NCBI GenBank assembly: GCA_963965975.1
Contig: OZ014412.1
Span: 3,970,501-4,034,500, forward strand
DNA length: 64,000 bases
Direction of reading: 5' to 3'
DNA from: Xestospongia bergquistia
Taxonomy: Eukaryota; Porifera; Demospongiae; Haplosclerida; Petrosiidae
The translations under genes and the position numbers were made by a program. How positions within the stretch are numbered: the stretch's first letter is position 1; each line of letters starts with the position of its first letter. Below the pieces are notes generated by a model. The model searched no databases. It was given only the letters and a program-made list of their open reading frames with translations, and was not told the origin of the DNA. Below, piece by piece: positions 27,196 through 63,747 of the stretch.

Positions 27196-30100
27196 ATGAA
27201 GTTTACATCTATACTGCTCGTGGCACTATCATGCTCTGCTGTGTTAGGTATGCGTTACAGTACATACAGTATAGATACTCTAGTTCTGCTATTAAAGTGA
27301 ACATAATGATGGTAGCGCTGCTCATTACAGAAAAATTTTAATAAACAACTGAATAGAAAACTGCCAATCTCGAAGCAATAATTAATATTTAAAATTATTA
27401 ATAATGGCAGTACCTATAGGTCTATTACAAAACACCAATAAAAAACTAAATTTCGTCACAAAAACGCAACTATAATTATATTTATATATGTAATTGTAAT
27501 AATGTTTTGAATGCTAATGGCTCCAAATGATCTTGTAGGTTGTCAAAAAACAAATGCTAATGAATGTTATCATAAGAACAACTAGATTCTAAATAATAGT
27601 ATCAATCTAAACTGAAAACTAGTATATAATTAAGTCTTTGAGAAAAACTTGAAATGTCACTTTTATTGCATTCTAGAACCTGTCAATCGGAATAGAGTGT
27701 GAAGGAACATATCTAGATACATGTTACTACTCTTTGTATTAACATTTTTTCTGTTTGTGCAAAATTAAGATAATTATTTTCATTAGAAGCTTTGTTGTCA
27801 GTTAGCACTTCCCAATTGAGTGTGGAGCTCTAACAGTCAGTCTAAAGTCACTTTTGCTTCTTGATGTTGAGTCTGTCAGGTTATACATATGATATTGTAT
27901 TACATAGTATTGAGGAAAACCTTATGTAATCTGTAGGTTAAAATTTATTTTTGTCAAGTCTAATATTCTTATTATTATATTTCTGTTTCAAGTGTTAATT
28001 TGTAATTTACTCTTATTATATATGATATTGCTCATGTTTTTCTTTTTAAGTCATTTTCAAGATCTTTCTGGTATTGCATCACATTTTGTATAAATAGCTG
28101 GTATTTTGTTGGAATGATAAGTCCATTTTAAAGTTGTATTTCAATTCTATCTTACTCATACCTTATGGGCTCAATTAATTTTCAAACCCTTATACTCAGT
28201 CCATCACAATAAATAATCCCGATCTATGCCTTGTACAGTGTGTACAGGGCCAGTATGACTTCCCTTTTGTATGTGTACGTGCTTAATCTATACAAAACAT
28301 TTAATGCATGATTATACCAACTTATGACAGGGTCTTGATACTCCAGTGGTTAGACAAAAAACAGCCTCAAACAAAATAATAAAAGAATGAGAGTTGGCAC
28401 AAGGAAGATAAGAGAAAGTACAATTAATCACACACACGATTGTAGAATTTGCAGTAGGAGTTGCTGTGTGCATTAGTGCTTGAGTAATCCAATTTATTCC
28501 TTTCAGTTGTTGTGTTATTATAAACAATAACAATTACCTCATACATAAGATATGGTCCAAAACAATTATAGTTAATCTTTTCTGTCTAGCATGCAATGTA
28601 TGCCAAGCAATAATGTTACAATATTTAAGGTGTGACTAACTTAACAGTAATGGATGCCATATTTCTAATATATTTAGGTTCCGTGGTTTAGTGCCTAGGA
28701 TATGACATTAATTTGACATTAAGGCGTAATATTCCATATGCATTGTCAGTAGAGTAACCATAGTTTAGATTTAATATTTGCTTTTTTGTTTCTTGTTATA
28801 TAGCTGTTCATTTCATATTTACTCCATCTCCTAACGTTGAAGTCTATCAACTAGCATATTACCAATGTTCAGTGGATCATACTGGTGTGACTATTGCTTG
28901 GCATGTTAATGAAACAACTTCTAACGATGGTAATATTACTCAACTTGGTATTGTTACAATTGGAGCAGGATCACCTAACTCCAGTCTTACCATACCTGGA
29001 TATCCTCAATATAACAATACAATAGTGAGATGTAATGCGTTTGGATTTGGTATAATTAATGGTAGTAATTATATCAATACTAACACTGCTACTTTGAGAA
29101 TACAAGGTAACACACTCTCTGATATATGTTATTGGATCTCCTCTCATTAGGTGAACTAGCTGCTGTCAACAACTTGATATGTCATGTACAAAGTCACTAT
29201 ATAAACTGTTCCTGGTATCCTCCCTTCTCTCTGGTATCCATACCTGGTTATATCATCAATGTTACTTATGGAGGAGAACTAGTTACACAGAACATTACAT
29301 CTTCTACAACATGGCAGTACTGTCCCAGTCAATTTGGTACATATACAATTAGTGTAGCTGGTAATAACTCAGCTGGAGAAGGAGAATTAAGTGCCACATC
29401 AGTTGAAGTACAAGAAGGTAGGTGATATATTTTTATTCATCAATTAAGAGTTTGCTTATAATAGACAATATAACTCATTGTAATGTGACTCCAATAAAAT
29501 TATTAAATGGTACTTACTTGGTTAAGTATGACATCCAGGTATGATTGTATCTTACATTCTACATACATTCTCTTTAGACCTTATATTCTATACCACCATT
29601 ATCAGTATCTATGAATGCAACTAGCATCAATGGAACTATAGTTGTATACGATAAAAACGTTAATGATATTGATAGAAATATATTTAAAGGAAACATAAGT
29701 ACTGGAACAACTGGCAGACAAAAGTTGAATATTACTTTGGTCTTGAGATATAACTGTAGCTCTCTTACTTCACAAATTAAAGCACTTAGTAAGTTCATGT
29801 AATTACATTTATTTAATATTGTTCCATGGCCATTAGCTACATTTGATGTACAAAATGGCAGTATAACAGTTATGGACTCTACTATTGGCCAAGTTTGTTT
29901 CACTTGTTATTTTATTGAGGGTACTCAATCGCAGGGATGTTATATTGAATATAAATGTATAGAGACAGATTACAATGGTAATATTACTATAGAGAGAAAG
30001 CCACTGAATGCCAAAAATGCTAGCAATTGTACTAAAGGAATTTTCACTGGTAATTATAATGTGGCCTTTTATGATCTGGATGAAAGCAGTGAATCTTATT

Positions 30101-31600
30101 CAAATGAGTATGCCTTAAAACTAACTAACCAAAATATAAGTGGTCTACCTGTTCCAGTTCAAACTTCTACATCCTATACATATTTGAAAACACTAACTAC
30201 ATTGTCATCATCACTGTCACCTCCATTATCAACTGTGCTATGTACAAATTGTACAAATAGCAGGACCCTGTGCCAAAATCACATCAATAGTGCCTGTACA
30301 TTTCCTACTACAGTAAACAATTCCATATCATTTGTAACTGGTATGTTAACTTATTATTGTAAAATATATATTGTATTTCAAATAGTTTCCATCGTGGTCC
30401 CAGTGCTTGTTTTGATTGTTTTTATTGTTATATTGATAATGTTCATAGCATTTGTGATGTTATCAAAACTGAAATCCAAAAAGACTCAAATTAGAAAAGC
30501 CCAAGAAGGTAATTAAAATGTTCTAATTACAAGCAAACCTATTTAATATCATAGATACAGGAAATTTATCAAAAGAGAATGGATCACATGATACTGAGGT
30601 TAAAAAAATTGAATTCTATATATTGTTATGTAAAAAATGAATAGTTGTGTTTTCTTATATATAGTATTATTACAGCAGTATTACTAGGTTAATTATGTCA
30701 TGCTTTCTCTCTGATTAAAATCTGATGGTTCAATGTATTGCATTATATGTGATGACCTCATGTAATCAAATTTAAAGATATTTTTCTCATTAAAAGTAAT
30801 TGTGTGGTATGATCATTATATAGACATTGTAAATAATACATGTTTTAATTTCCAACTAATACTTAGATATCATCAAAAACAACTCAACTAAACCAGATCC
30901 CCTATACTGATGTGACTCCATCATCTAATGGTCCTATTGCTCCTCCTACTCTCCATTCTACAGTACCATATAGTACAGTAGTACATGAGACACCAATAAC
31001 AGGACAATATAGTTTAGCACAACAATATCAGTCTTCATATTCAGTGAATGGACCATCTAATGAGGAATATGCCAGACTTAATCATAATGTACGTGCTAGT
31101 ATCCAACTTTATGATCGTACTCAACATCCTCATTCTCATACTTCAACACCTATTCCACCTATGTATTCTACACTACCTACTAATGGTAACATGACAAGTT
31201 ATATATCATCACCTGACAGTCAGTACTCTACTTTGTGTAATAAAACAAGTGATAAATTAACTATTAAGAAGACAACAGGTCAGTAACTTTACTATATAGT
31301 AGATATTATATTATATTTATTATATTAGAGTTAACTCATAAAGATCTAGTTACTTATGTTGCTCCACACGTAACTACAAAACTACGAGAGATAGGTACTG
31401 CCCTAGTACTAACTCCATCTGAACTAGATGACATTGAAGAGAACCATCAAGGTATCACTGGTGTGTTCCAACTCTGGTATGAGACTAAGAGACGTCCATA
31501 TACCTGGGACACATTGTTGATGATATTGAGATCACCAGCTGTGAACAATGCTGAACTTGCTGATCAATTAGAGATACAATTCTATGACAATTCTAGTTAA
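27196..31600 (+). CDS. Ig-FN3 transmembrane receptor with ITIM-like motifs and a Death domain (753 aa)
   Basis: Exons: 27196-27247, 28804-29106, 29151-29417, 29465-29538, 29578-29788, 29837-30340, 30386-30508, 30555-30598, 30867-31278, 31329-31600. The total is 2262 nt, an exact open frame. Residues 1-17 are a signal peptide; the MKFTS start is chosen because the minus-strand paralogue has an identical-length first exon. Ig 18-119 (C-S-V-D...I-A-W and V-R-C-N-A-F-G). FN3 119-207 (I-N-C-S-W-Y-P-P, A-G-N-N-S-A-G-E-G-E). Beta module 208-303. Cysteine module and Ser/Thr/Cys stalk 303-471. TM about 472-497. The Tyr-rich tail 527-664 has I-P-Y-T-D-V, V-P-Y-S-T-V and S-Q-Y-S-T-L, all fitting the ITIM pattern, plus Y-A-R-L. 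Death domain 664-753 (L-R-E-I-G, F-Q-L-W-Y, Y-T-W-D-T-L-L, E-L-A-D-Q-L). It probably sits in the plasma membrane and signals through SH2 and Death-domain partners (inference). Ligand unknown. Confidence 0.9.
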
Positions 31601-34725: not shown

Positions 34726-36685
34726 ATGGATCTAGTGAAGACAACATGGCTACTACTGATATTGTCAGTATCTATTATATTTAAATGTACAGGTATGATT
34801 ATATTAATAACTAGTGTACTATTTTATTTAGTTTTATTATATAGCTGTTCAGTTCATATTTACTCCATCTCCTAACATTGGAATCTATCAACTAGCACAT
34901 TCCCAATGTTCAGTGGATCATCCTGATGTGGGTATTACTTCCCTTGTTAATAGAACAACCTGTGATATTAATTGCAATATTATACAACTTAGTGTATTGG
35001 TATATTGTTACAAATGGAGTAGGAACACCTAATTCCAGTCTCACCATACCTGAATATCCTCAATATTTTAGTGAAATGTACTATTGATATGTGAATGGAA
35101 ATATTGTAATTGAAATTATGTCAACTTCAGTTGATCTACTCTGAGAATACAAGGTAACACACTCTCTGATATATGTCACTATATCTCCTCTCATTAGGTA
35201 AACTAGCTGCTGTCAACAACTTGATATGTCAAGTCAGTATATAAACTGTTCCTGTTCTCCTCCCTTCTCTCTGGTATCCATACCTGGTTATATCATCAAT
35301 GTTACTTATGGAGGAGAACTAGTTACACAGAACACTACATCTTCTATAACATGGCAGTACTGTCTCAGTCAATTTGGTAACTATACAATTACATATTTGG
35401 TACATATATAATTAGTGTAGCTGGTAATAACTCAGCTGGAGAAGGAGAGATAAGTACTACATCACTACATGTAACAGGAGGTATTATCACTATGGTTACT
35501 AATGTATAATTTGTTACTTTGACTTTAGTTAATATAAGTAATTTAACAACTACCTTTATCAGATCAGTTAATAGTTGGATACTAAATGTAACAATATATG
35601 ATTTGGTAAGTTACATTATGATATCTCTAGATACCTCATGTTTGTGATATTAGGAACTTCAACAATGTCCACATACAGTGGAGTCAACTCAACTAAATGT
35701 TGTTATATATAATGAAGATAATTCTTCTATATTTCTAAATAATCCAATAATTCTAACTGATGAAGGAGTTATTGTTGTTACCATCTATATTGTAAATATA
35801 ACTGAGAATAAAATATGGAAGACAAGAATGACTTTATCATTAGCAAGTGGAGCTGTTATTGATGTAACAGAATCAACTGTACTAAGTAAGTACATTATAA
35901 ATGACTTACAAATATTTTCTCATTTACTAGGTACATTATCAGATCACTGAGCAAGATCATCTACTAATAATACTATTACCAGAATTGAACAAATTTACCA
36001 ATCTCTTGAAGTGTCCTGTTTGGTATGTCCTGCTTCCATGTTTGCTATTACTACAGGAACTGACCATTAAGTAATTATTAGTACATTTGATATCATTATA
36101 TCTCATTTATGTTATAAATACAAAAATTGTTAAAAAAGCTGCTGGTATAGCAGATGGTAATGAATGGACATTTTAGTAGTCTAAACTGGTTGTCATATCA
36201 TTATGTGAATAGATAAATAAATAGATGACTCAAAAAAGTTCTTGTCACTGGAAATCATTCTAAGAATGAAGTTCTGAGAGAAAGAGAGAGAGAGAAAAAA
36301 TAACACAAAAAAATCACTTTTATAGAAATAGAACAAAACAGATCTGTGTGCACACTGTTTACAAATTACAGATTATATTTCCTTATCCACAGGAAATGTA
36401 GTGGGTATGTCAGTTCTACTGGTATGTACTGTACTAGTACATACAGTGATATGTTTGATAAGAAGAACTAAGTCACTGAGACAAGGTAATACTAACAGTG
36501 GGAATAGTTTGTAAATGGTATTATCCATTGTAGGTACTGTACCATCTTCTGTTAATCCACTAACAGATACTGTCCCTCATCAAGTTATACCTCAATATGA
36601 GAATGTTGATAAGATCACTAATACACTACCTACTACTGAACTAGAGATGAACACATGTGCAGCGTATGGTGTGATAAAATATTAA
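34726..36685 (+). pseudogene. Short-tail (ITSM-type) Ig-FN3 receptor, broken copy
   Basis: Exons correspond one-to-one to the intact gene at 54084-56070: signal 34726-34792, Ig 34845-35153, FN3 35198-35480, then 35529-35605, 35654-35885, 35931-about 36075, TM 36393-36485 and tail 36534-36685. The signal peptide is intact (M-D-L-V-K-T-T-W-L-L-L). The Ig exon has a frameshift with an early stop, and its core Trp is changed (I-T-S instead of I-T-W). The FN3 exon lost 7 nt after N-L-I-C and carries an internal tandem duplication. The cysteine-module exon has a large deletion and an in-frame TGA. The TM exon and the tail remain open, with Y-E-N-V and A-A-Y-G-V-I. It lies 3.1 kb downstream of the DD receptor on the same strand. 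Confidence 0.85.
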
Positions 36686-42799: not shown

Positions 42800-45700
42800 A
42801 TGCTAAAGCTGCGTACAATCGTCTTTATGATGCTGCATGGCTACATCTCTGGTATGTCGTTAATCACCTAAGTAAGAGTACAGTAGTATAACAATTTAAG
42901 GGCAACCCAATTTTTCTATTTTAGTGAGGTCTGTCGACATTGTCGCTTTATAAGAGTAAAATTGTAGTAATATAGTTACTTTTTCACTGCCTGGCTCTCG
43001 CAGCACGAAAAGAAATCTATAATCGTTTTTGGACAACATGCACATTATGTGTATATATTATTACTCTCTTTATTTTATTCCGTTATTGTATTCTACAATA
43101 TTAATCTATACCGACGTTTAAACGTATGTTTACGCACTTGTCCTATAATCGTTTTGGACCATGTGTTAACTGATCATGCTCTTTCTTTCTTTGTCTATAT
43201 TTCTAGCATTCTATAGCAATTAGTCTTCCACAGGCACTGTGCTAATTACACAATCTTTGTAGCACTAGTCAATTTTTTCACTGTGAAGTCAGTATCTTCT
43301 AAAACAATCATAGGATAATTTTTTTCAATTATAATCTTATTTAATTTACAATCATCATAGTTTGTAGATTTTTCAGAAATATACTAGAACAGTTAATGAC
43401 TAAAGTATGTAACTAGCAATAATTAAAGCAGCAACAATTTATTCCAGCAGGAAGACCATGTATTATGATACTGATTTGCACAGTTACTTCCCAATGTCAA
43501 CTACCAAAATGTCACTTCCCAAAATATCAACTATCAAAATACCAACTTTCATTATTGTATTAGAATTATGTTTTAGATAATAACTTGGTGGTACATCCTG
43601 TAATTGACCAAATGGCAGTCCCTATAAATTTCATTTTAGCGTTAAGCCTTATGACCTTTGATGTTTTTTTGGATGGTACAAATAGCAATTCCCACTCACT
43701 AAACATTCACTATATACAGAAAAGTATGACTTCCTGCTAAACACAAGGGAACGTTTGTTTTTTGTGTGCTTGTTTTTTGTGTGCTAGTAAAAAAGGTTAA
43801 GTTTTGTTAACTTCTCCCCTAACCTTATAGTGTAGAGCTAGTATGCATTTGTGTGAGTTATATTTACTGAACAAATAGCATCCATAGACTGATAATAGAA
43901 TAAGACGGGATGAGTTATGAATTATAATAGAGCTACTACATGTAACATCATTCCTATACAATTCAAAGAAGATTCATTTCACAATTACCATCTGTAAGGA
44001 CAATTACAACTTGTGAAATGTATTGACAAGCTTAATTTTGAAGATTTTTGCCCTTTTATTAGTGTTGCATCATAGCTAAATTTGTTTAATAAACCATGGC
44101 AGATCATAACATCTCCAACTTGCAGATAAAGAGGTCACCCTTTATCAAGAACAATAAAACTGTTGACATGATGTACATTCTGCTCTACAAATTGCCCTTA
44201 ACAGACATTTAAAATTGGGAAGTAGATGGCTATCACAATATTCATAAATTTTGTAATTAAAAATTATAATTTCTTTCATTGTGCAGCTATCCAAATGACA
44301 TTTGATCCATCTCCTAACATTGGAGTCTATCAACTAGCATATTACCACTGTTTTGTAGATCATCCTGGTGTGAGTATTACTTGGCTTGTTAATGGAACAG
44401 GTTCTGGTCATAATGACATTATGAAACTTGGTATTGTTACAGATAGAGCAGGATCACCTAACTCTAGACTTACCATACCTGGATATCCTCAATATAACAA
44501 TACAATAGTGAGATGTAATGCTTTTGGATTTGTGAATGGTAATACATATTTTAACTTCAATGAATCTACTCTGAGAATACAAGGTAACATACTCTCTGAT
44601 ATATGTCATTATATGTCCTTTCATTAGGTGAACTAGCTGCTGTCAACAAGTTCACATGTCATGTACAAAGTCAGTATATAAACTGTTCCTGGTATCCTCC
44701 CTTCTCTCTGGTATCCATACCTGGTTATGTCATTAATGTTACTTATGGAGAAGAACTAGTTACACAGAACACTACATCTTCTATAACATGGCAGTACAAC
44801 TACTGTCCCAGTCAATTTGGTACATATACAATTAGTGTAGCTGGTAATAACTCAGCTGGAGAAGGAGAGATAAGTACTACATCAGTTGTAGTACTAGAAG
44901 GTAAACATTATAGACCTTTTAATTTATCAACTACTTGATACTAATAGATATAATTACTAACTATGATGTAACTCCTAAAAGATTATCAAATGACATATAT
45001 CTGATCGACTATATTGTAGAGGTATGATAGCTCTCTTATATAAATATCATATACTTTTATATATATTTTATTTAGACTGTGTATTCACTACAGCCATCAT
45101 TAGTATTTATCAATATAACTAATAGTACTGGAACTACATTTATTTTTAATGGAAGTGTAGATGACTTTGTTGGAAATAAGTTAATTGGAAATATAAGTAT
45201 TGACATGACTGGTAGACAAAAATGGAGTATTGTTTTGACATTAAGATATAACTGTATATCTCTTAATTCACCAGTTAAACTATTTTGTAAGTTTGTTTAA
45301 TCATATTAGTTGTATTAATATTTTTATTAGCTACATTTGATGTACAAAATGGCAGTTTAACAGAGGAGTCTGGACAAGTTTGTTTTACTTGTTATTTTCT
45401 TGAGGGTAGTCAATCACAAGGATGTTATATTGAATATAATTCACTTATAACAGACTACTACAGTGGTAATATTACCATAGTGAGAACATCAGTAGATAGC
45501 AGTACTGCTAGTAAATGTGTGACAGGAATATATACCAGTAACTATAATGTGACATTTTATGATATGGATTATAACAATGTAACATATACTACTGAGTATG
45601 CTGTAAAACTGATTAATCAATTAATTACTGGACTATCTCTTGGTATTCCCACTTTGTTTATTACATCAAGTGTATTTTCTCCATCAATTATACTTGATAA

Positions 45701-46048
45701 TAGTAAGTTATTAAATTATTATATTATTACATTAAGTTATATATACTACAACAGTGAAAGGTGGTTCATCAGTAACAACAATTATTAGTAAGTTTATACA
45801 TAATATAATATAGTGTTATTATTATGAATTATCTTTTATAGTTGCTACAATAGTCTCAGTGATAATTATGTTATTAATTATTATTGTTATTGTGTTATTA
45901 GTAACTATATTCCTATACAGAGTCAACAGAAGTAAGTTAAATACACTTTATTAATAATGACATAATCACATGTATAGATGAACGGATACCAGAACACAAT
46001 GGAAGTACCGGAAATGATTCAGATGAGGTTAATAAAAAGGACAGTTAA
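42800..46048 (+). CDS. Tail-less DD-type Ig-FN3 receptor (490 aa), possible decoy
   Basis: Exons: 42800-42851, 44287-44583, 44628-44900, 44948-45021, 45076-45286, 45331-45702, 45755-45787, 45842-45931, 45978-46048. The total of 1473 nt is open. The 42800 ATG (M-L-K-L-R-T-I-V-F-M-M-L) gives the same 52-nt first exon as its relatives; an ATG 6 nt upstream is also in frame. Ig 18-117, FN3 117-208 (two extra residues, N-Y, before C-P-S-Q), beta module 208-303, cysteine module 303-427, TM about 438-462, then a short tail ending S-D-E-V-N-K-K-D-S and a stop. The weak donor GAG|GTTAAT used by relatives to reach the Tyr-rich exon is present. Downstream, though, that exon is cut after R-H-S-K and the Death-domain exon is gone. 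It probably binds ligand without signalling (inference). Confidence 0.78.
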
Positions 46049-46064
46049 TGATCATAATATTGCT

Positions 46065-46770
46065 ATATTATAATATGGAAGCTGTATTAGTTATTATTAG
46101 TTCATCAGTAACAACAATTGGTAAGTCTATACGTAATATAATGTTATTCTGAATTATCTTTTCTCATCAATTGTATTTGTATTACTTATTCTTATTGTCG
46201 TTGTGTTAGTTATAATTGTAGTCCTATTATCAAGTCAATATAAGTAAGTTAAATACATTAATAATATTAACTAATTTTATTGTCACATATATAGGAAAAT
46301 TTCTGCAATAACAAAACAATTGAAATAATCCAGACAAGATTAATAAAGACAGTCAACAAGCATAATACAAAACAAACCATAATACTATGGAAAAATATAA
46401 TCACGTGTCTCAAATTTTGTAAAATATAATCCAACAGCAGTACTATGATGTCTCATTTTGTGTTTGTGTGAATGTTTTCTTATGTATGTAAGTACAACAA
46501 ACATTTTCTTAATATCAATTATTAATGTAATTATTTGGTGTGATAATAAAACTATTATGTTAATAAATACTACATGTTGTAATATATTTTGATCAACTAT
46601 ACTGATGTGACTCCATTATCTAATGGTCGTATTGATCCACCTGATCGCCATTCTAAAAGTCAATAACCAGGTTGTTACATTGAATATAACTCACTTATAA
46701 CAAACTACTACAGTGGTAATATTACCATAGTGAGAACATCAGTAGATACCAGTACTGCTTGTAAATCCAT
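46065..46770 (+). pseudogene. Scrambled 3' remains of the tail-less receptor
   Basis: 46110-46250 repeats the stalk/TM exon pair in decayed form (S-S-V-T-T-I, then an Ile/Val-rich stretch). About 46596-46665 is the start of the Tyr-rich tail exon (Y-T-D-V-T-P), broken off. 46668-46765 is a piece of the cysteine-module exon (G-C-Y-I-E-Y-N-S-L-I-T), out of order. Together they show how the tail was lost. Confidence 0.75.
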
Positions 46771-47634
46771 AATGGCAGTCTTGGATATAAATTTTACATA
46801 TCTAATATCAGAATCAATAGAAAATGTCAAGAATTGATTTCTCAGATTGTACACACTTCCGTATGTAAGGTATGTATCAGGGTGTGTTCTTGTAAACATA
46901 AACAAGACAGATCAATATAGCTGCATGTAGTGTGCCTTTTCTCACCCCCACACTACATGCAGCTACATACAGACATATTATTTGTGCTTTCTGTAAACGA
47001 TATATACACAAAAACATGACAGACAACCACATAGATGTAGTCATTATTTGTCATATAGGTATGTATACCTAATATGTACAATATTATCTTTGACCCAATA
47101 GACCAATAGTTGATAACCAAATTGTATGGAGGAAAGATAAGTTAGAATATTAGCATAGGTATAGTATACAGACCACATAGTATCGGTCCAATAGCTTATA
47201 GTCTTGATGTCTGAAGAGGTTAAGAAAGACCTAACAATTTGACATAGTGTTATGTTAGAGAGGTATTCCTAAAAGTGAGGTAATGTTGTTTAATGTCTCT
47301 GACTTGATTGTCACACGATGATAAGCCCAATGCTGTAATTTGATTACTTCAGTATTATAATATGTTAATGCTAACTTGTGAATATCACCTTTATACCAGC
47401 ATATACTGTAATATAACATAATATATAGTTATACAATATTATATGTTTAATATGACTGTGTGTGATTGGGTGTGTAACTGTGTATCCTTTGTTGAACAAT
47501 GTCTTGTTATACTTTTCCTGTTTACAATGTCATGTGTTCTTTTCTGCCTGGCACAATGTGCAACATGCCAGGTGGTCTCAAGACTGTTTTAAAAATCTAT
47601 CTGTCAATCTGTATCTATACATATATAATTTGTG

Positions 47635-54083: not shown

Positions 54084-56070
54084 TCAATGTTCAATCACAC
54101 CATATGCAGTACATGTGTTCATCTCTAGTTCAGTAGTAGGTAGTGTATTAGTGATCATATTAACATTCTCATATTGAGGTATAACTTGATGAAGGACAGT
54201 ATCTGTTAGTGGATTATGGATAATACCATTTACAAACTATTCCCACTGCTAGTATTACCTTGTCTCAGTGACTTAGTTCTTCTTATCCAACATATCACTA
54301 TATGTACTAGTACAGTACATACCAATATTAGAACTGACACACCCACTAGACTACCTATATACTACAGTAACAGTTTAATAATAACATATGTTTACTACTA
54401 CATACCAGCAGCTGTTAAAAAACTGTTATCAACATGTGTATCATCTATATAACATACATAGAGATATAATAATGATAAAAAATGTACTAATGATTACTTA
54501 CTAGACAAACAGTTGTATGTTCCTGTAGTAACTATAGAAATTGGACATGTGTATATAGAATTAGTCACTTCAAGAGATGAGTAAGTTGGTTCTAATCCAG
54601 TAATAGTGATATTAGTAGATGAAATTACCCAGTCATCAGATAATCTACCCTCCTCTTCAATATCATATACATACATATTATATATACCACTAGGTAGATC
54701 ATATGTACATCCAATTACTGTACTACTACATACTGGAGAACACATCAATGATATGTTAGTACTGTAGGTAGAAGAGGTTAATGAAATAAGACAACCTTTA
54801 ACAAGAGCTCCTCTTATAAAATGACAGCTGTAACATGTTCTACCAATATTACTTAGGTCATTATATAGGATAGCTTCACTAATATCATATGTACCTAATG
54901 AATGAGAAAATATTTATAAGTCATTTATAATGTACTTACTTAGTACAGTTGATTCTGTTACATCAATAACAGCTCCACTTGGTAATGATAAAGTCATTCT
55001 TGTCTTCCATATTTTATTCTCAGTTATATTTACAATATAGATGGTAACAACAATAACTCCTTCATCAGTTATAATTACTGGATTATTTAGAAATATAGAA
55101 GAATTATCTTCATTGTATATAACAACATTTAGTTGAGCTGACTCCATTGTATGTGGACATTGTTGAAGTTCCTAATATCACAAATATGAGGTATCTAGAG
55201 ATATCATAATGTAACTTACTAAATCATATATTGTTATATTTAGTAACCAACTATTAATTGATCTGATAAAGGTAGTTGTTAAATTACTTACATTAACTAA
55301 AATCAAAGTAACAAATTATATATTAGTAACCATAGCGATAATACCTCCTGTTACATGTAGTGATGTAGTAGTTATCTCTCCTTCTCCAGCTGAATTATTA
55401 CCAGCTACACTAATTGTATATGTACCAAATTGACTGGGACAGTACTGCCATGTTGTAGAAGATGTAGTGTTCTGTGTAACTAGTTCTCCTCCATAAGTAA
55501 CATTGATGATATAACCAGGTATGAATACCAGAGAGAAGGGAGGAGACCAAGAACAGTTTATATAGTGACTTTGTACATGACATATCAAGTTGTTGACAGC
55601 AGTTAGTTCACCTAATGAGAGGAGATATGATGACATATATCAGAGAGTGTGTTACCTTGTATTCTCAGAGTAGATTCATTGGTATTAAAATAACTATTAC
55701 CATCTACAAATCCAAAAGCATTACATCTCACTACTGTATTGTTATATTGAGGATATCCAGGTATGGTAAGTTTGGAGTTAGGCGATCCTGTTCCATTTGT
55801 AAGAATACCAAGTTGAGTAATATCATTATGACCAGAACCTGTTCCATTAACAAGCCAAGTAATACTCACACCAGTATGATCTACTGAACATTGGTAATGT
55901 GCTAGTTGATAGACTTCAATGTTAGGAGATGGAGTAAATATAAACTGAACAGCTATATAATAAAACTAAATAAATAGTACATTAGTTATTAATATAATCA
56001 TACCTGCACATTTTAACATAATAGATACTAACAATATCAGTAGCAGCCATGTTGTTTTCATAAGATCCAT
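54084..56070 (-). CDS. Short-tail Ig-FN3 receptor with ITSM-like motif (528 aa)
   Basis: Exons in transcript order: 56004-56070, 55656-55952, 55345-55611, 55220-55296, 54940-55171, 54502-54894, 54406-54444, 54259-54354, 54084-54202. The sum of 1587 nt is an exact open frame. Signal peptide 1-22 (M-D-L-M-K-T-T-W-L-L-L). Ig 23-122, FN3 122-211 (C-S-W-S-P-P), beta module 211-314, cysteine module 314-445 (C-Y-S-C-H-F, G-C-L-I, C-S-P-V-C, V-I-G-C-T-Y-D), stalk, TM about 461-482. The 39-residue tail has P-Q-Y-E-N-V (Y-x-N, a Grb2-type SH2 site) and C-T-A-Y-G-V-I, which fits T-x-Y-x-x-I (ITSM-like). The usual acceptor of the last exon is deleted; a CTAACAG inside the exon restores the frame. It lies 3.0 kb downstream of the DD receptor on the same strand. 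Probably a membrane receptor regulated by tyrosine phosphorylation (inference). Confidence 0.88.
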
Positions 56071-59058: not shown

Positions 59059-62000
59059 TTAAGTAAGTTGTACTTCTAATTGGTCAGCAAGTTCAGTTTC
59101 ATTTACAGCTGGTGACCTCAATACCATCAACAATGTGTCCCAGGTATATGGACGTCTCTTAGTCTCATACCAGAGTTGGAACACACCAGTGATACCTTGA
59201 TGGCTCTCTTCAATATCATCTTGTTCAGGTGGAGTTAGTGCTAGGGCAGTACCTATCTCTCGTAGTTTTGTAGTTACGTGTGGAGCAACATAAGTAACTA
59301 GATCTTTATGAGTTAACTCTAATATAATAAATATAATATAATATCTACTATATAGTAAAGTTTACTGACCTGTTGTCTTCTTAATAGTTAATTTATCACT
59401 TGTTTTATTAGACAAAGTAGAGTACTGACTGTCAGGTGATGATATATAACTTGTCATGTTACCATTAGTAGGTAGTGTAGAATACATAGGTGGAATAGGT
59501 GTTGAAGTATGAGAATGAGGATGTTGAGTATGATCATAATGTTGGGTACTAGCATGTACATTATGATTATGTCTGGCATATTCCTCATTAGATCGTCCAT
59601 TCACTGAATATGAAGACTGATATTGTTGTACTAAACTATACTGTCCTATTATTGATGTCTCATGTACTACTGTACTATATGGTACTGTAGAGTGGAGAGT
59701 GGGAGGAGCAATAGGACCATTAGATGATGGAGTCACATCAGTATAGTTGAGCTGGTTAGATTGAGTAGTTATTAATATCTAATGTGTGTATAGAAATAGA
59801 AAAAACATGCAGTATTTATTGATGTGATCAATTTATCACACTAAACCATTACTTTAATAATTAATATTCAACAATAAAGAACATTTGAATTGTATTTTAT
59901 AAGTAGTTCGTCATCATTGACAATACACAGATGAACTGTTGGATAATCTGTCACATACATATAATGAGACACTTTGCTGTTTAAATATAGCTTCCATATT
60001 ATAATGGATCAATATTATGATTATCAAGATATCAAGATTAGCTGTCTTTTTCATTAACCTTATTTAAATTATTCTTAGCACTTTCTTTGTCTTGTTCTGG
60101 TATTGATATATCTATATATGTGACAATGTCATTATTAATAAAGAGTGTATTTAACTTACTTTTCTTAGCTCTATAAAGGACTATAGTTACAAATAACATA
60201 ATGACAATAATAATTAATAACATAATTATCACTGAGACTACTACACCAACTATAAAAGATAATTCATAATAATAACACTATTTATATATTATGTATAAAC
60301 TTACTAATAATTGTTGTTACTGATGAACCACCTTTCACTGTTGTAGTATACATAAATTAATGTGATATTTGTAATAATATAATAACTTACTATTATCAAG
60401 TATAGTTGATGGAGATGATGATATAACATTAGTTGATAAAGAAAATACACTTGATATAAAGGTAGAAGAAGGAATAATAGTGGAAGAAGATAATCCAGTC
60501 ACTAATTGATTAGTCAGTTTTACAGCATACTCAGTAGTATATGGTACATTGTTATAATCCATATCATAAAATGTCACATTATAGTTACTGGTATATATTC
60601 CTGTCACACATTTACTAGCAGTACTGGTATCTACTGATGTTCTCACTATGGTAATATTACCATTGTAGTAGCCTGTTATAAGTGAGTTATATTCAATATA
60701 ACATCCTTGTGATTGACTGCCCTCAAGAAAATAACAAGTAAAACAAACTTGTCCAGACTCCTCTATTAAACTGCCATTTTGTACATCAAATGTAGCTAAT
60801 AAAAGAATACAAATAACAAATAAAGTAATTATATTAACTTACAAATTACTTTGGCTGGTAACTTATTCTTTAAAGAGTTGTTATTGTCATATATTAGACT
60901 TAAAGACACAGTCAACTTTTGTCTTCCATTTGTACCAATATTTATATTCCCTTTAAATTTATTATCAACAATATCAGTAACTGTTCCAGTATATGTTAAT
61001 ATAGTTCCATTACTAGTAGTTAGTTTGAGAGATATTAATGATGGTACTATACAATATGTAGTCTAAGAGAGAAAATGAATCTGAAATAACTTAGGTTATG
61101 ACATACCTCTATAATACACCTGATCAAATAAGAACCATTTGATAATATTTTAGTAGTCACATTATAGGAAGTAATTTCATCTATATATAGTTATAGTGAA
61201 GAGAGATTGAATATAACTATATCACTTACCTTCTGGTACTACAACTGATGTGATACTTATCTCTCCTTCTCCAGCTGAGTTATTACCAGTAACACTAATT
61301 GTATAGTTACCAAATTGACTGGGACAGTACTGCCATGTTGTAGAAGATGTAGTGTTCTGTGTAACTAGTTCTTCTCCATAAGTAACATTAATGATAAAAC
61401 CAGGTATGAATACCAGAGAGAAGGGAGGAGACCAAGAACAGTTTATATACTGACTTTGTACATGACATATCAAGTTGTTGACAGCAGCTAGTTCACCTAA
61501 TGAGAGGAGATATAATGACATATATCAGAGAGTGTGTTACCTTGTATTCTCAGAGTAGCATTATCAAAGTTAGTATAACGATTGCCATCAACAAATCCTG
61601 CAGCAAAACATATCACTACAGTATTATTTAAATGAGGATATCCAGGTATGGTAAGACTGGAGTTAGGTGATCCTGCTCCAATTGTAACAATACCAAGTTT
61701 CATAATATCATTATGACCAGAACTTGTTTCATTAACAAGCCAAGTAACAGTCACACCATTATGATCTACTGAACATTGGTAATGTGCTAGTTGGTAGACT
61801 TCAATGTTAGGAGATGGAGTAAATATGAACTGAACAGCTATACATACACAAGGAATAAATTAATGAAAATTATGTATAATATGTATATTTACATACTTGA
61901 AAAATTTCCTTAATTATTGATAAATTAGCTTTATATTAAACACTACCATATTAATAACAATACATTAAAGTTGCAAACGTGGACATATTGTTATTATGCG

Positions 62001-63747
62001 ATATCTGGCACTCTGCTTAGAAAAGCTTAGAAATAACATATAACAAAAGCACCCCCTACGTATAAGCCTAATGAAATTCTAATGGGAACCCTCAGACAAG
62101 CTATAGATAGAACCTAACTACATGTACATGTCTTTTATTATATGTACTTGTATCATATCACACAGAGTCATGATCAGTGTAGAGTCTACATGTATGGTAC
62201 AGTATGAAAGAAAATTTTAATTCAAATATAACTATGTAGTTCCTTTTAACAAAATCCCATAGATCATGTAGATGGATGCACCTTCTTTATTTTGAGTGGG
62301 CATGGTCATAATGTCATCATGTGACATTGTGATTACTAATACACTAAAGCTAATGTGCTATATAATAGTGCTTCTAATGACATTGTTAAGTGGACATGGC
62401 TAGATGTAATCATGTGAATAGAAAAGTGATGTTTATGTAGTCTTGTTACAAGACACCCACTTACTCAGTACTGTGAAAAGGTCTCCTTGTCCACATTAGC
62501 AAATAGGCATCTGGGAATGAGATAGTGTTTGTGCTTTACTAAGTCAGATTGTACTGATATCATGACCATTCCCACTCAAAATAATCGAGGTGCCACACCA
62601 TTTCCATGCTCCAATCCCATACAACATTGTTGTCTCAAACACAAATATGACAATAAAATGGCATTTCCAAATAGCTATTCTTGGGGTTCAGAGGTCCCAA
62701 GAATTTGTCCCTGCTCCCTCCCTTTCTCAACAGCCCTACCTACATACTTTCACTCTGAATAAAGCTATTAATAAATTACTTGCTGATTCAAATAATAAAT
62801 CACACAGGTATCAGGTGTACAAGGTACCATGTTGACCAATCTGATTGCTTCATTTTAATTGTTGCATTCAATGCAATGTGTCTGCTGCTTTGAATACACT
62901 TGTGTCACTCTGCTTGTTAACTTTAGTTAACAAAGAAAAGCTCATTACTTTACTGGAAGTAGAAGAAGTGGACTTTCTTGTTTACACTTTTGCTGACAAT
63001 ACATAACAAGTCTATTCTACTAGGTGATATACACCTTCATTAGTCCTACCCCCTATTTTTGATGTTCAGTTAAGCATCGCACCGATTAGCCCATTTGGCT
63101 CGGTAGCAATAGTTCTTACTTCTAAACAGAGGATTATGCTCAAAAATCCACAATGAAATTATAGCTCATGGAAAAGTTTTACTTAGTATTAGTTTCTATC
63201 AAATGGAAATTGAACCACTGAAATAGTCTTACGAGGATAGCTCTTTCCTTAAAGGAAGACCTCACAAGACTACCACTGAATTTGCCAGTGTTCATCAAAT
63301 TTATACTTTAAATCTCAATTTTTGCTTGTTTCACGCTTTTAGGAGTATTGTCTTTCATATACAAAGAGTCTTAATTTGCATTTATTACTAACAGAAATTT
63401 TCATAATGTTATAAAAATTTACCGACTAATTGAAAATTAAAAGATAAGGCAGTAATTTCTGCCAAGTTGATCACTATAACCTTAGAAATCATAGCTACAG
63501 AAAAGATTTTATAGGAACTTATACACCTCTCCGGGATGTGTACAAGTTATTTTATTGAGTAATGAATGACCTGAGATGGAGCAATCTGATTGGTCAATTA
63601 AGGTATACCATATAAGATACAAACCCCTCCTACAATATAGATTCAGTTTGTATAATACTAAGCAAGTGCCAGTGCGTGATCACCAAATATCTTACCTGAG
63701 ACACCGAGACGTAAAATAATCAGTAAGGGTACTAACAGGAACTTCAT
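59059..63747 (-). CDS. Ig-FN3 transmembrane receptor with ITIM-like motifs and a Death domain (719 aa)
   Basis: Exons in transcript order: 63696-63747, 61541-61837, 61230-61496, 61107-61180, 60843-61062, 60391-60795, 60305-60337, 60160-60249, 60059-60111, 59370-59778, 59059-59318. The total of 2160 nt is an exact open frame. Signal peptide 1-17 (M-K-F-L-L-V-P-L-L-I-I-L) with a phase-1 donor; intron 1 is 1.86 kb and shows no other gene. Ig 18-117, FN3 117-205, beta module 206-304, cysteine module and Ser/Thr stalk 304-450, TM about 452-473 ending L-Y-R-A-K-K. The Tyr-rich tail 498-634 keeps L-N-Y-T-D-V, V-P-Y-S-T-V and S-Q-Y-S-T-L; Y-A-R-L has become Y-A-R-H. Death domain 634-719 (F-Q-L-W-Y, Y-T-W-D-T-L-L, E-L-A-D-Q-L). 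Retention of the intron with the weak donor AAG|GTTAAT at 60059 would end the protein six codons later, without ITIMs or Death domain. Closest relative in the window is the + strand gene at 27196. Confidence 0.9.

Follow-up and report, generated by a model that had tools for sequence, protein, structure and literature searches.

Can a single receptor chain combine an Ig-type ectodomain, the tyrosine motifs of inhibitory immune receptors, and a Death domain? This question is raised by a 64,000-nucleotide stretch of the sponge Xestospongia bergquistia (assembly GCA_963965975.1, contig OZ014412.1, positions 3,970,501 to 4,034,500, forward strand), referred to here as the window. It contains gene A at 27196-31600 on the plus strand and its paralogue, gene B, at 63747-59059 on the minus strand. 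Both gene models were inferred from sequence, and a window position is the C2 genome coordinate minus 3970500.

Architecture of gene A

Gene A was rebuilt as 10 exons whose introns are all GT-AG and whose joined frame encodes 753 amino acids. From the amino to the carboxy terminus, the exons specify a signal peptide, an Ig-like domain, an FN3-like domain, three ectodomain blocks, a transmembrane (TM) segment, a 44-base juxtamembrane stretch, a tyrosine-rich (Tyr) region, and a Death domain. The first-pass annotation had placed this ectodomain, tyrosines resembling the immunoreceptor tyrosine-based inhibition motif (ITIM), and a Death domain in one 753-residue chain, and the sequence reconstruction bears the architecture out. 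We give about an even chance to the reading that gene A is a type-I receptor from a tandem family with exchangeable tails in a cluster of ~1.5 Mb, that SHP-type phosphatases tune its Death-domain output, and that it acts in self-recognition or defence. The family, its two tails, the Death fold, and the conservation of the motif tyrosines are read directly from the predicted sequences. The exons of gene A are as follows.

27196..27247, plus strand: exon 1, start codon and signal peptide, read from sequence
28804..29106, plus strand: exon 2, Ig-like domain with a C..W..C pattern; weak Ig_3 match in three of eight members
29151..29417, plus strand: exon 3, FN3-like domain; fn3 match in five of five members, gene A under the cut-off
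29465..29538, plus strand: exon 4, ectodomain block
29578..29788, plus strand: exon 5, ectodomain block
29837..30340, plus strand: exon 6, membrane-proximal ectodomain block and Ser/Thr-rich stalk
30386..30508, plus strand: exon 7, TM segment; 19-residue hydropathy 3.7
30555..30598, plus strand: exon 8, juxtamembrane; weak donor (3.9), with a stop after 13 codons if the donor is unused
30867..31278, plus strand: exon 9, Tyr exon with five YxxPhi motifs
31329..31600, plus strand: exon 10, Death domain and stop codon

The ectodomain assignments come from weak profile matches. The best Ig_3 match among the members had an E of 0.0086, the ig profile matched one of eight members, and gene A alone gave no Ig profile match. 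The Ig exon matched neurotrimin weakly in the PDB (E 0.53). Gene A scored 20.8 bits against the fn3 cut-off of 25, and a profile search with the FN3 exon gave a weak match to a DCC FN3 domain (E 0.0047) that ranked behind a bacterial protein at 0.00031. A PDB sequence search with exon 6 up to E=1 gave no relative. The Pfam matches of genes A and B up to E=1 included no TSP1 or ZU5 domain and no cysteine-rich TNFR repeats. An FN3 domain of the class-I cytokine-receptor type (C..C.W) was considered and dropped; it had a single weak IL6Ra-bind match. The whole gene A protein had no match at E<=0.001 among 7995 candidates scored from a database of 5.8 billion proteins, and exon-sized queries found relatives there because that database contains exon-sized frames. 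A search of NCBIfam returned 0 families.

Tyrosine motifs and Death domain

Three motifs in exon 30867-31278, just before the Death exon, fit [SIVL]-x-Y-x-x-[ILV], as annotated. Two more YxxPhi sites, EEYARL and PMYSTL, lie between them. The five motifs, all on the plus strand, and their retention among 14 copies from this genome and 30 database copies are listed below.

30897..30914, plus strand: IPYTDV (Y539; residues 537-542), ITIM-like; pattern kept in 11 of 14 own members
30963..30980, plus strand: VPYSTV (Y561; residues 559-564), ITIM-like; kept in 13 of 14 own and 28 of 30 database copies
31062..31079, plus strand: EEYARL (Y594), YxxPhi, which we take to be hemITAM-like; kept in 11 of 14 own and 24 of 30 database copies
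31158..31175, plus strand: PMYSTL (Y626), YxxPhi; kept in 11 of 14 own and 29 of 30 database copies
31218..31235, plus strand: SQYSTL (Y646; residues 644-649), ITIM-like; kept in 13 of 14 own copies (strict pattern) and 29 of 30 database copies, with N also allowed at -2

Genes A and B have three [SIVL]xYxx[ILV] motifs each, which are cytoplasmic provided that the tail exons join the TM exon. Y539 and Y561 are 22 residues apart, and Y626 and Y646 are 20 residues apart. When the gene A Tyr exon was shuffled 20,000 times, three or more ITIM-type motifs arose in 0.9% of shuffles, and five YxxPhi motifs also in 0.9%.

Conservation of the motif tyrosines was measured in the 30 database copies (21 from long contigs and nine from short ones, of 106 homologues) and in 14 of 17 own genes; g3837, g2865, and g3574 are out of frame or stopped and were left out. 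Mean diversity in the database copies was 0.079 at the four covered motif tyrosines versus 0.290 at five other tyrosines of the exon. The motif tyrosine is kept in 29 or 30 of the 30 copies at three of the four sites, and in 26 at Y594. Column sampling gave p values of 0.03-0.05 for the 30 database copies, 0.08-0.11 for the 21 long-contig copies, and 0.006-0.08 for the 14 own copies. Circular shifts ranked the motif conservation 6, 13, and 16 of 120, and similar tests gave p values of 0.04-0.10. These comparisons suggest that motif tyrosines are better conserved than other tyrosines of the exon and lend modest support to their function.

The first-pass annotation also held that gene B keeps the same three motifs and that this retention argues for selection. 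The pattern is indeed present at all three positions in gene B, with identical letters at two only (LNYTDV replaces IPYTDV). The argument for selection is not supported in that form. The Tyr exon (88% DNA identity) and the intron behind it (96%) form a young or homogenised cassette, and therefore the likeness of the motifs in A and B says little about selection. The proposed selection ratio was run over the family copies, and the Tyr exon gave a ratio of nonsynonymous to synonymous differences (pN/pS) of 0.82, nearly neutral.

The last exon was predicted to match the Pfam Death profile (PF00531). The gene A exon alone scored 16.9 bits, under the cut-off of 22.6, so the formal match failed; the Death assignment was reached through relatives. 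The Death profile matched 10 of 12 family members (best E 0.0056), and one member matched Pribosyltran (E 0.0033). A relative at 35% identity in the same genome scored 25.7 bits, and relatives from the database scored 25.4 bits (56% identity) and 35.8 bits (47% identity), all above the cut-off; other relatives scored below it. The Death fold on which the annotation hinged was found: the structure model and the fold search agree on a six-helix death fold, with the Death domains of Fas-FADD ranking near the top of the fold matches. A first AlphaFold model from two sequences only (pLDDT 57) had fold matches that pointed to Death domains, and it was replaced by the deeper model. A Death-domain profile gave 0 matches among PDB sequences up to E=1. 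Profile-profile comparison of the family with eight strong Death domains of the genome (E 0.09, probability 0.6%) suffered from low diversity and a wrong-strand row (L007) and was not used. The Death exon is under constraint, with a pN/pS of 0.49 in 16 of the 17 genes (g3205 is frameshifted).

A tandem family with alternative tails

A search of the 146-Mb genome with the Tyr exon gave 72 matches, all of them on C2:2.87-4.37 Mb. Inspection by eye found 17 stop-free matches covering 120 residues or more; two of them (3839281 and 2866225) do not fit the frame of the usual acceptor. About 14 of these 17 adjoin a Death exon in which no stop interrupts the match, or one occurs only at its end. Searches with the Death exon gave 149 matches (150 of 531 candidates scored); the cluster stretch came first, with other Death domains following at 26-39% identity. 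Death domains are numerous in the genome, and all 150 that were scored, of 983 candidates, exceeded the cut-off. Of the 150 listed matches to the FN3 exon (150 scored of 210 candidates), at least 112 fall within C2:2.74-4.17 Mb with an identity of 79% or higher, a few of them with stops.

A second tail type is the commoner ending, so the family has at least two. Its TM sequence has 127 of 133 matches on C2, and its short terminal exon, ending PQYENV..CAAYGVI (the YENV..YGVI type), has 143 of 150 listed matches there, amounting to more than 100 exon copies. Short-tail genes are fewer than short-tail exons because some of these exons form small arrays. Arrays of three to five exons, mostly ~250 bases apart, occur at C2:3695026-3696708, 3594033-3594670, and 3715776-3716403; therefore, a single gene may have several terminal exons to choose from. 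Both kinds of tail adjoin within the window, where gene B (11 exons, 719 amino acids; LNYTDV, VPYSTV, and SQYSTL) neighbours a short-tail gene at 54093-55950.

63696..63747, minus strand: gene B exon 1, signal peptide
60160..61837, minus strand: gene B exons 2-8, Ig-like domain, FN3-like domain, ectodomain blocks, and TM segment
60059..60111, minus strand: gene B juxtamembrane exon; donor 5.3, read-through ends VNEKDS*
59370..59778, minus strand: gene B Tyr exon
59059..59318, minus strand: gene B Death-domain exon
54593..55950, minus strand: short-tail neighbour, ectodomain matches (Ig-like, FN3-like, membrane-proximal block)
54093..54355, minus strand: short-tail neighbour, TM match 54233-54355 and YENV..YGVI-type tail match 54093-54215; these are matches with approximate exon ends

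Two further members lie in the window. The stretch 34847-36676 has a fragmentary Ig/FN3 copy and, behind it, matches to the short-tail TM and tail (36392-36676); a family gene at 44289-46795 has every ectodomain exon type and a tail present as fragments only.

Alignment of the 17 tail-bearing genes, two of which lack alignable Ig and FN3 exons, gave different median pairwise DNA identities along the gene. FN3 is the most alike (91.5%), followed by Tyr (88%), Death (87%), and Ig (81%); exons 4-6 (64-70%) and TM (51%) have diverged most. The tail identities indicate that the tail cassette is young or homogenised. The 50-base intron between the Tyr and Death exons (31279-31328) is 96% identical, above its flanking exons (87-88%), which a regulatory element or a conversion tract could explain. 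The splice sites from the Ig exon to exon 5 are kept in 15 of the 17 aligned genes. Pooled pN/pS was 0.84 for Ig and 0.69 for FN3 (15 genes each), 0.83 for exons 4-5 and 0.60 for exon 6 (14 genes each), and, as given above, 0.82 for Tyr and 0.49 for Death. Positive selection on the Ig exon was considered and rejected; dN exceeded dS in only 25 of 105 pairs, and the pooled ratio is the 0.84 just given.

Matches in C2:4069649-4097056 recur in 4135017-4162628 at an offset of 65.4-65.6 kb (for example, 4084974 and 4150366), which suggests a recent 65-kb segmental duplication inside the cluster. A few family copies that have FN3 and short-tail matches, some of them with stops, lie elsewhere, at C14:3442065-3445566, C9:4028698-4035495, and C9:5428748-5433897. 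The short-tail TM sequence also occurs three times at C9:2160686-2177313 (84-93% identity), beside a cluster of tyrosine-phosphatase domains, perhaps through exon sharing between receptor families.

The Tyr exon has 106 homologues in the protein database. We tabulated 46 by contig, with 14 and 21 on long contigs and 11 on short ones; the remaining 60 are mostly shorter pieces. These were compared with the fetched own copies, comprising all Tyr-exon matches of at least 119 residues, and contigs were distinguished by their number of bases alone. All 14 homologues on contigs of 1,508,125, 1,603,339, and 564,068 bases equal this assembly at 99% identity or more. None of the 21 on five other long contigs (1,679,331, 643,386, 546,873, 703,615, and 663,590 bases) has a partner above 93.5% in this assembly, and for seven of them the nearest relative is in this genome. 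For some pieces from the contig equal to this assembly, no close counterpart was seen, since the comparison left out short or broken own copies. The different tail repertoire of the other contigs may represent another haplotype of a locus that varies in gene content, as in polymorphic recognition loci.

Candidate signalling partners, rival explanations, and known receptors

The genome encodes candidate partners for both halves of the tail. Seven uninterrupted SH2-SH2-PTP frames were found (C7:8318067-8319560; C3:916188, 1265457, 1268722, 1273556, 1275615, and 1282056), along with one split copy at C6:199640-201523 and one interrupted copy on C3. The C7 copy matches residues 1-517 of the 532 residues of PTPN11 (SHP2) with an E of 6e-197 and retains HCSAGIGRTG and WPD. 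The one C3 copy that was read has HCSSGIGRTG and WPE instead of WPD, and therefore may be impaired. Mammals have two SHPs, and the SHP-type family is, by these predicted frames, expanded in this genome. DED proteins gave 12 matches, nine of them above the cut-off. The SHP-type and DED genes make SH2-phosphatase docking and Death-domain signalling possible rather than proven.

Some of these genes are clustered. The SHP-type cluster at C3:1265457-1283528 has five single uninterrupted frames, one interrupted frame, and one with PTP only. A 493-residue frame at C11:6694988-6696274 has four DED domains in a row, with two two-DED frames nearby. Ten SH2 frames of 398-500 residues, possibly Src-like kinases, are clustered at C6:1622265-1697212. 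Large clusters of tyrosine-phosphatase domains occur at C9:1993085-2150236, C5:438649-784372, C10:973421-1246711, and C2:6833447-6926631; the search reported 194 matches, with 150 scored of 405 candidates.

In the proposed mechanism, the variable ectodomain would recognise a self or foreign ligand, and candidate Src-type kinases would phosphorylate the YxxPhi tyrosines. SHP-type phosphatases with tandem SH2 domains would dock on the pairs Y539/Y561 and Y626/Y646 and restrain signalling. With the tail unphosphorylated, the Death domain would assemble an adaptor complex with DED proteins or further Death-domain proteins, and death or an NF-kB-type output would follow. The state of tyrosine phosphorylation would in this way determine the Death-domain output, as in Fas. 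The multigene and apparently variable organisation of the cluster points to a possible role in allorecognition or defence. A bolder extension, which we put forward tentatively, is that the cluster is a polymorphic self/non-self complex of this probably early-branching animal in which a subset of receptors joins SHP control to Death signalling, so that contact leads to tolerance or death, and the SHP family expanded alongside.

Several observations weigh against the receptor being a phosphatase-tuned Death receptor, and some concern the junction of the TM segment with the tail. The juxtamembrane donor at 30598 scores 3.9 in gene A, and its counterpart 5.3-9.0 in eight paralogues (5.3 in B); the 75 family donors used for comparison have a median of 9.8 and a 5th percentile of 5.6. 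Read-through gives gene A a stop after VKKIEFYILLCKK, and in nine listed genes a stop follows within 4-16 codons in eight, with the ninth (g4117) out of frame as listed. Splice-chain tests covered 15 alignable genes, of which g3574 gave no chain. Free chain-building ranked the 753-residue chain of gene A third, and its chains in the Tyr-fitting frame scored slightly under the two other frames. Phase 0 was best in only seven of 14 genes, with one third expected by chance, and gene A was not among them. Alternative endings, a short read-through versus Tyr plus Death, are thus quite possible. The receptor might even end regularly in the juxtamembrane exon, as the short read-through ends of A (VKKIEFYILLCKK), B (VNEKDS), and further members would allow, and the Tyr and Death cassette would then be a relic or be transcribed separately. 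Within the family, short-tail exons are much more frequent, and several Tyr or Death copies are broken, which fits this explanation. We nevertheless consider it rather unlikely, since the Death exon is under purifying selection, the Tyr-to-Death splice phase is kept, the Tyr exon begins 153-522 bases past the juxtamembrane exon on the same strand in the nine listed genes, and the head of the Tyr exon has no conserved start codon. The juxtamembrane exons of related members end at similar phase-0 donors, fitting the phase-0 Tyr exon.

The remaining difficulties concern the motifs and the locus. The motif-conservation p values span 0.006-0.11 depending on the set and positions chosen, the Tyr exon overall is near neutral (pN/pS 0.82-0.86), and the other contigs could stem from another individual or species rather than another haplotype. 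Recent duplication and gene conversion alone might explain the conserved tail, with motifs that do not function as ITIMs in a decaying family; most motif tests (p 0.03-0.11) and the 96% identity of the Tyr-Death intron are in keeping with that. This is distinctly unlikely in our judgement, as non-motif tyrosines are lost freely while motif tyrosines are kept, and the Death exon is constrained. Alternatively, the YxxPhi tyrosines could be mainly clathrin/AP-2 sorting signals for internalisation, leaving the Death domain as the sole signalling module. All five motifs have the form of the AP-2 signal, the -2 residue at Y594 and Y626 is E/D or P and thus non-ITIM, and the +3 residue is hydrophobic in most copies. 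However, V at -2 in 14 of 14 own copies at one motif and S in 13 of 14 at another are features that AP-2 is not known to need, and the 20-22 residue spacing and the expanded SHP family fit SH2 docking. A sorting role has a precedent in Fas, where phosphorylation of Y291 is described as priming clathrin-dependent endocytosis (PMC4778973), and yet as the main function of these motifs it appears unlikely.

Clustered Ig receptors with ITIM-type tails have parallels elsewhere. The paired inhibitory/activating receptors of vertebrates (KIR, LILR, and others) are clustered Ig receptors with common ectodomains, differing tails, and ITIM-type motifs ~20-30 residues apart, and they are not known to have a Death domain. 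The sponge family likewise shares ectodomains among differing tails, but here both tails bear tyrosine motifs and one a Death domain. The family also has the trait of Alr- and fuhc-type loci, clustered multigene Ig-type receptors with ITIM-type tails, although its Ig assignment is weak. Botryllus FcoR and Hydractinia Alr are described as Ig receptors of variable multigene loci with ITIM, hemITAM, or core YxxI/L/V tails; the likeness is one of description, and the term 'death domain' has 0 occurrences in that review (PMC12065747). Sponge Ig-TIR receptors similarly join an Ig-type ectodomain to an innate-immune adaptor domain, which is TIR rather than Death (PMC6208332). They are few, with one and two genes reported from two sponge transcriptomes (PMC6208332) and six from the Dysidea avara genome (PMC12909245), compared to more than 100 copies in this cluster.

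Control of Death-domain receptors by phosphatases has also been described. The first-pass annotation stated that vertebrate ITIM and Death-domain signalling sit on separate receptor families; this is wrong as stated, and Fas with SHP-1 and UNC5C with SHP2 are counterexamples. Fas (CD95), of the TNF receptor family, has a Y291 motif like an ITIM or an immunoreceptor tyrosine-based activation motif (ITAM) within its Death domain, and SHP-1 associates with Fas and not with the Y291A form (PMC4778973, PMC4572867). SHP-1 is reported to regulate Fas phosphorylation, and Src kinases also handle the Fas tyrosines (PMC4778973), a likeness to the scheme proposed here. The two receptors differ in that the Fas ectodomain has cysteine-rich repeats and that of gene A is Ig/FN3-like, and the Fas tyrosines are inside the Death domain whereas those of gene A occupy an exon of their own ahead of it. 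UNC5C has Ig and Death domains and is described as recruiting SHP2 when phosphorylated (PMC6080411). UNC5A-D differ from genes A and B, which have no match to TSP1 or ZU5 and have an FN3-like domain, serial ITIM-like motifs, and a multigene cluster.

Phosphatase control of Death-domain receptors (Fas, UNC5C) and ITIM-type tails in the Botryllus and Hydractinia loci are therefore already on record in these sources. The combination of several ITIM-like motifs with a Death domain in one Ig/FN3-type chain, at cluster scale and with alternative tails, is what is new here; full-text searches of an open-licence library turned up no title on an ITIM and Death-domain receptor in a sponge. Invertebrate self-recognition mechanisms have been called a 'complete mystery', with candidate proteins not conserved across sponges, cnidarians, and ascidians (PMC12065747). 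The receptors involved are largely unknown, and this locus, with more than 100 clustered Ig/FN3-type copies, is a concrete and testable candidate. If the proposed mechanism is true, phosphatase control of Death-domain receptors, as known from Fas and UNC5, would either be ancient or have arisen more than once.

Finally, cathepsin/silicatein-like genes were recovered from the genome with a silicatein-type query, but two active-site patterns had no match; the first also allowed Cys for Ser, and the second was limited to one Ser codon type out of two.

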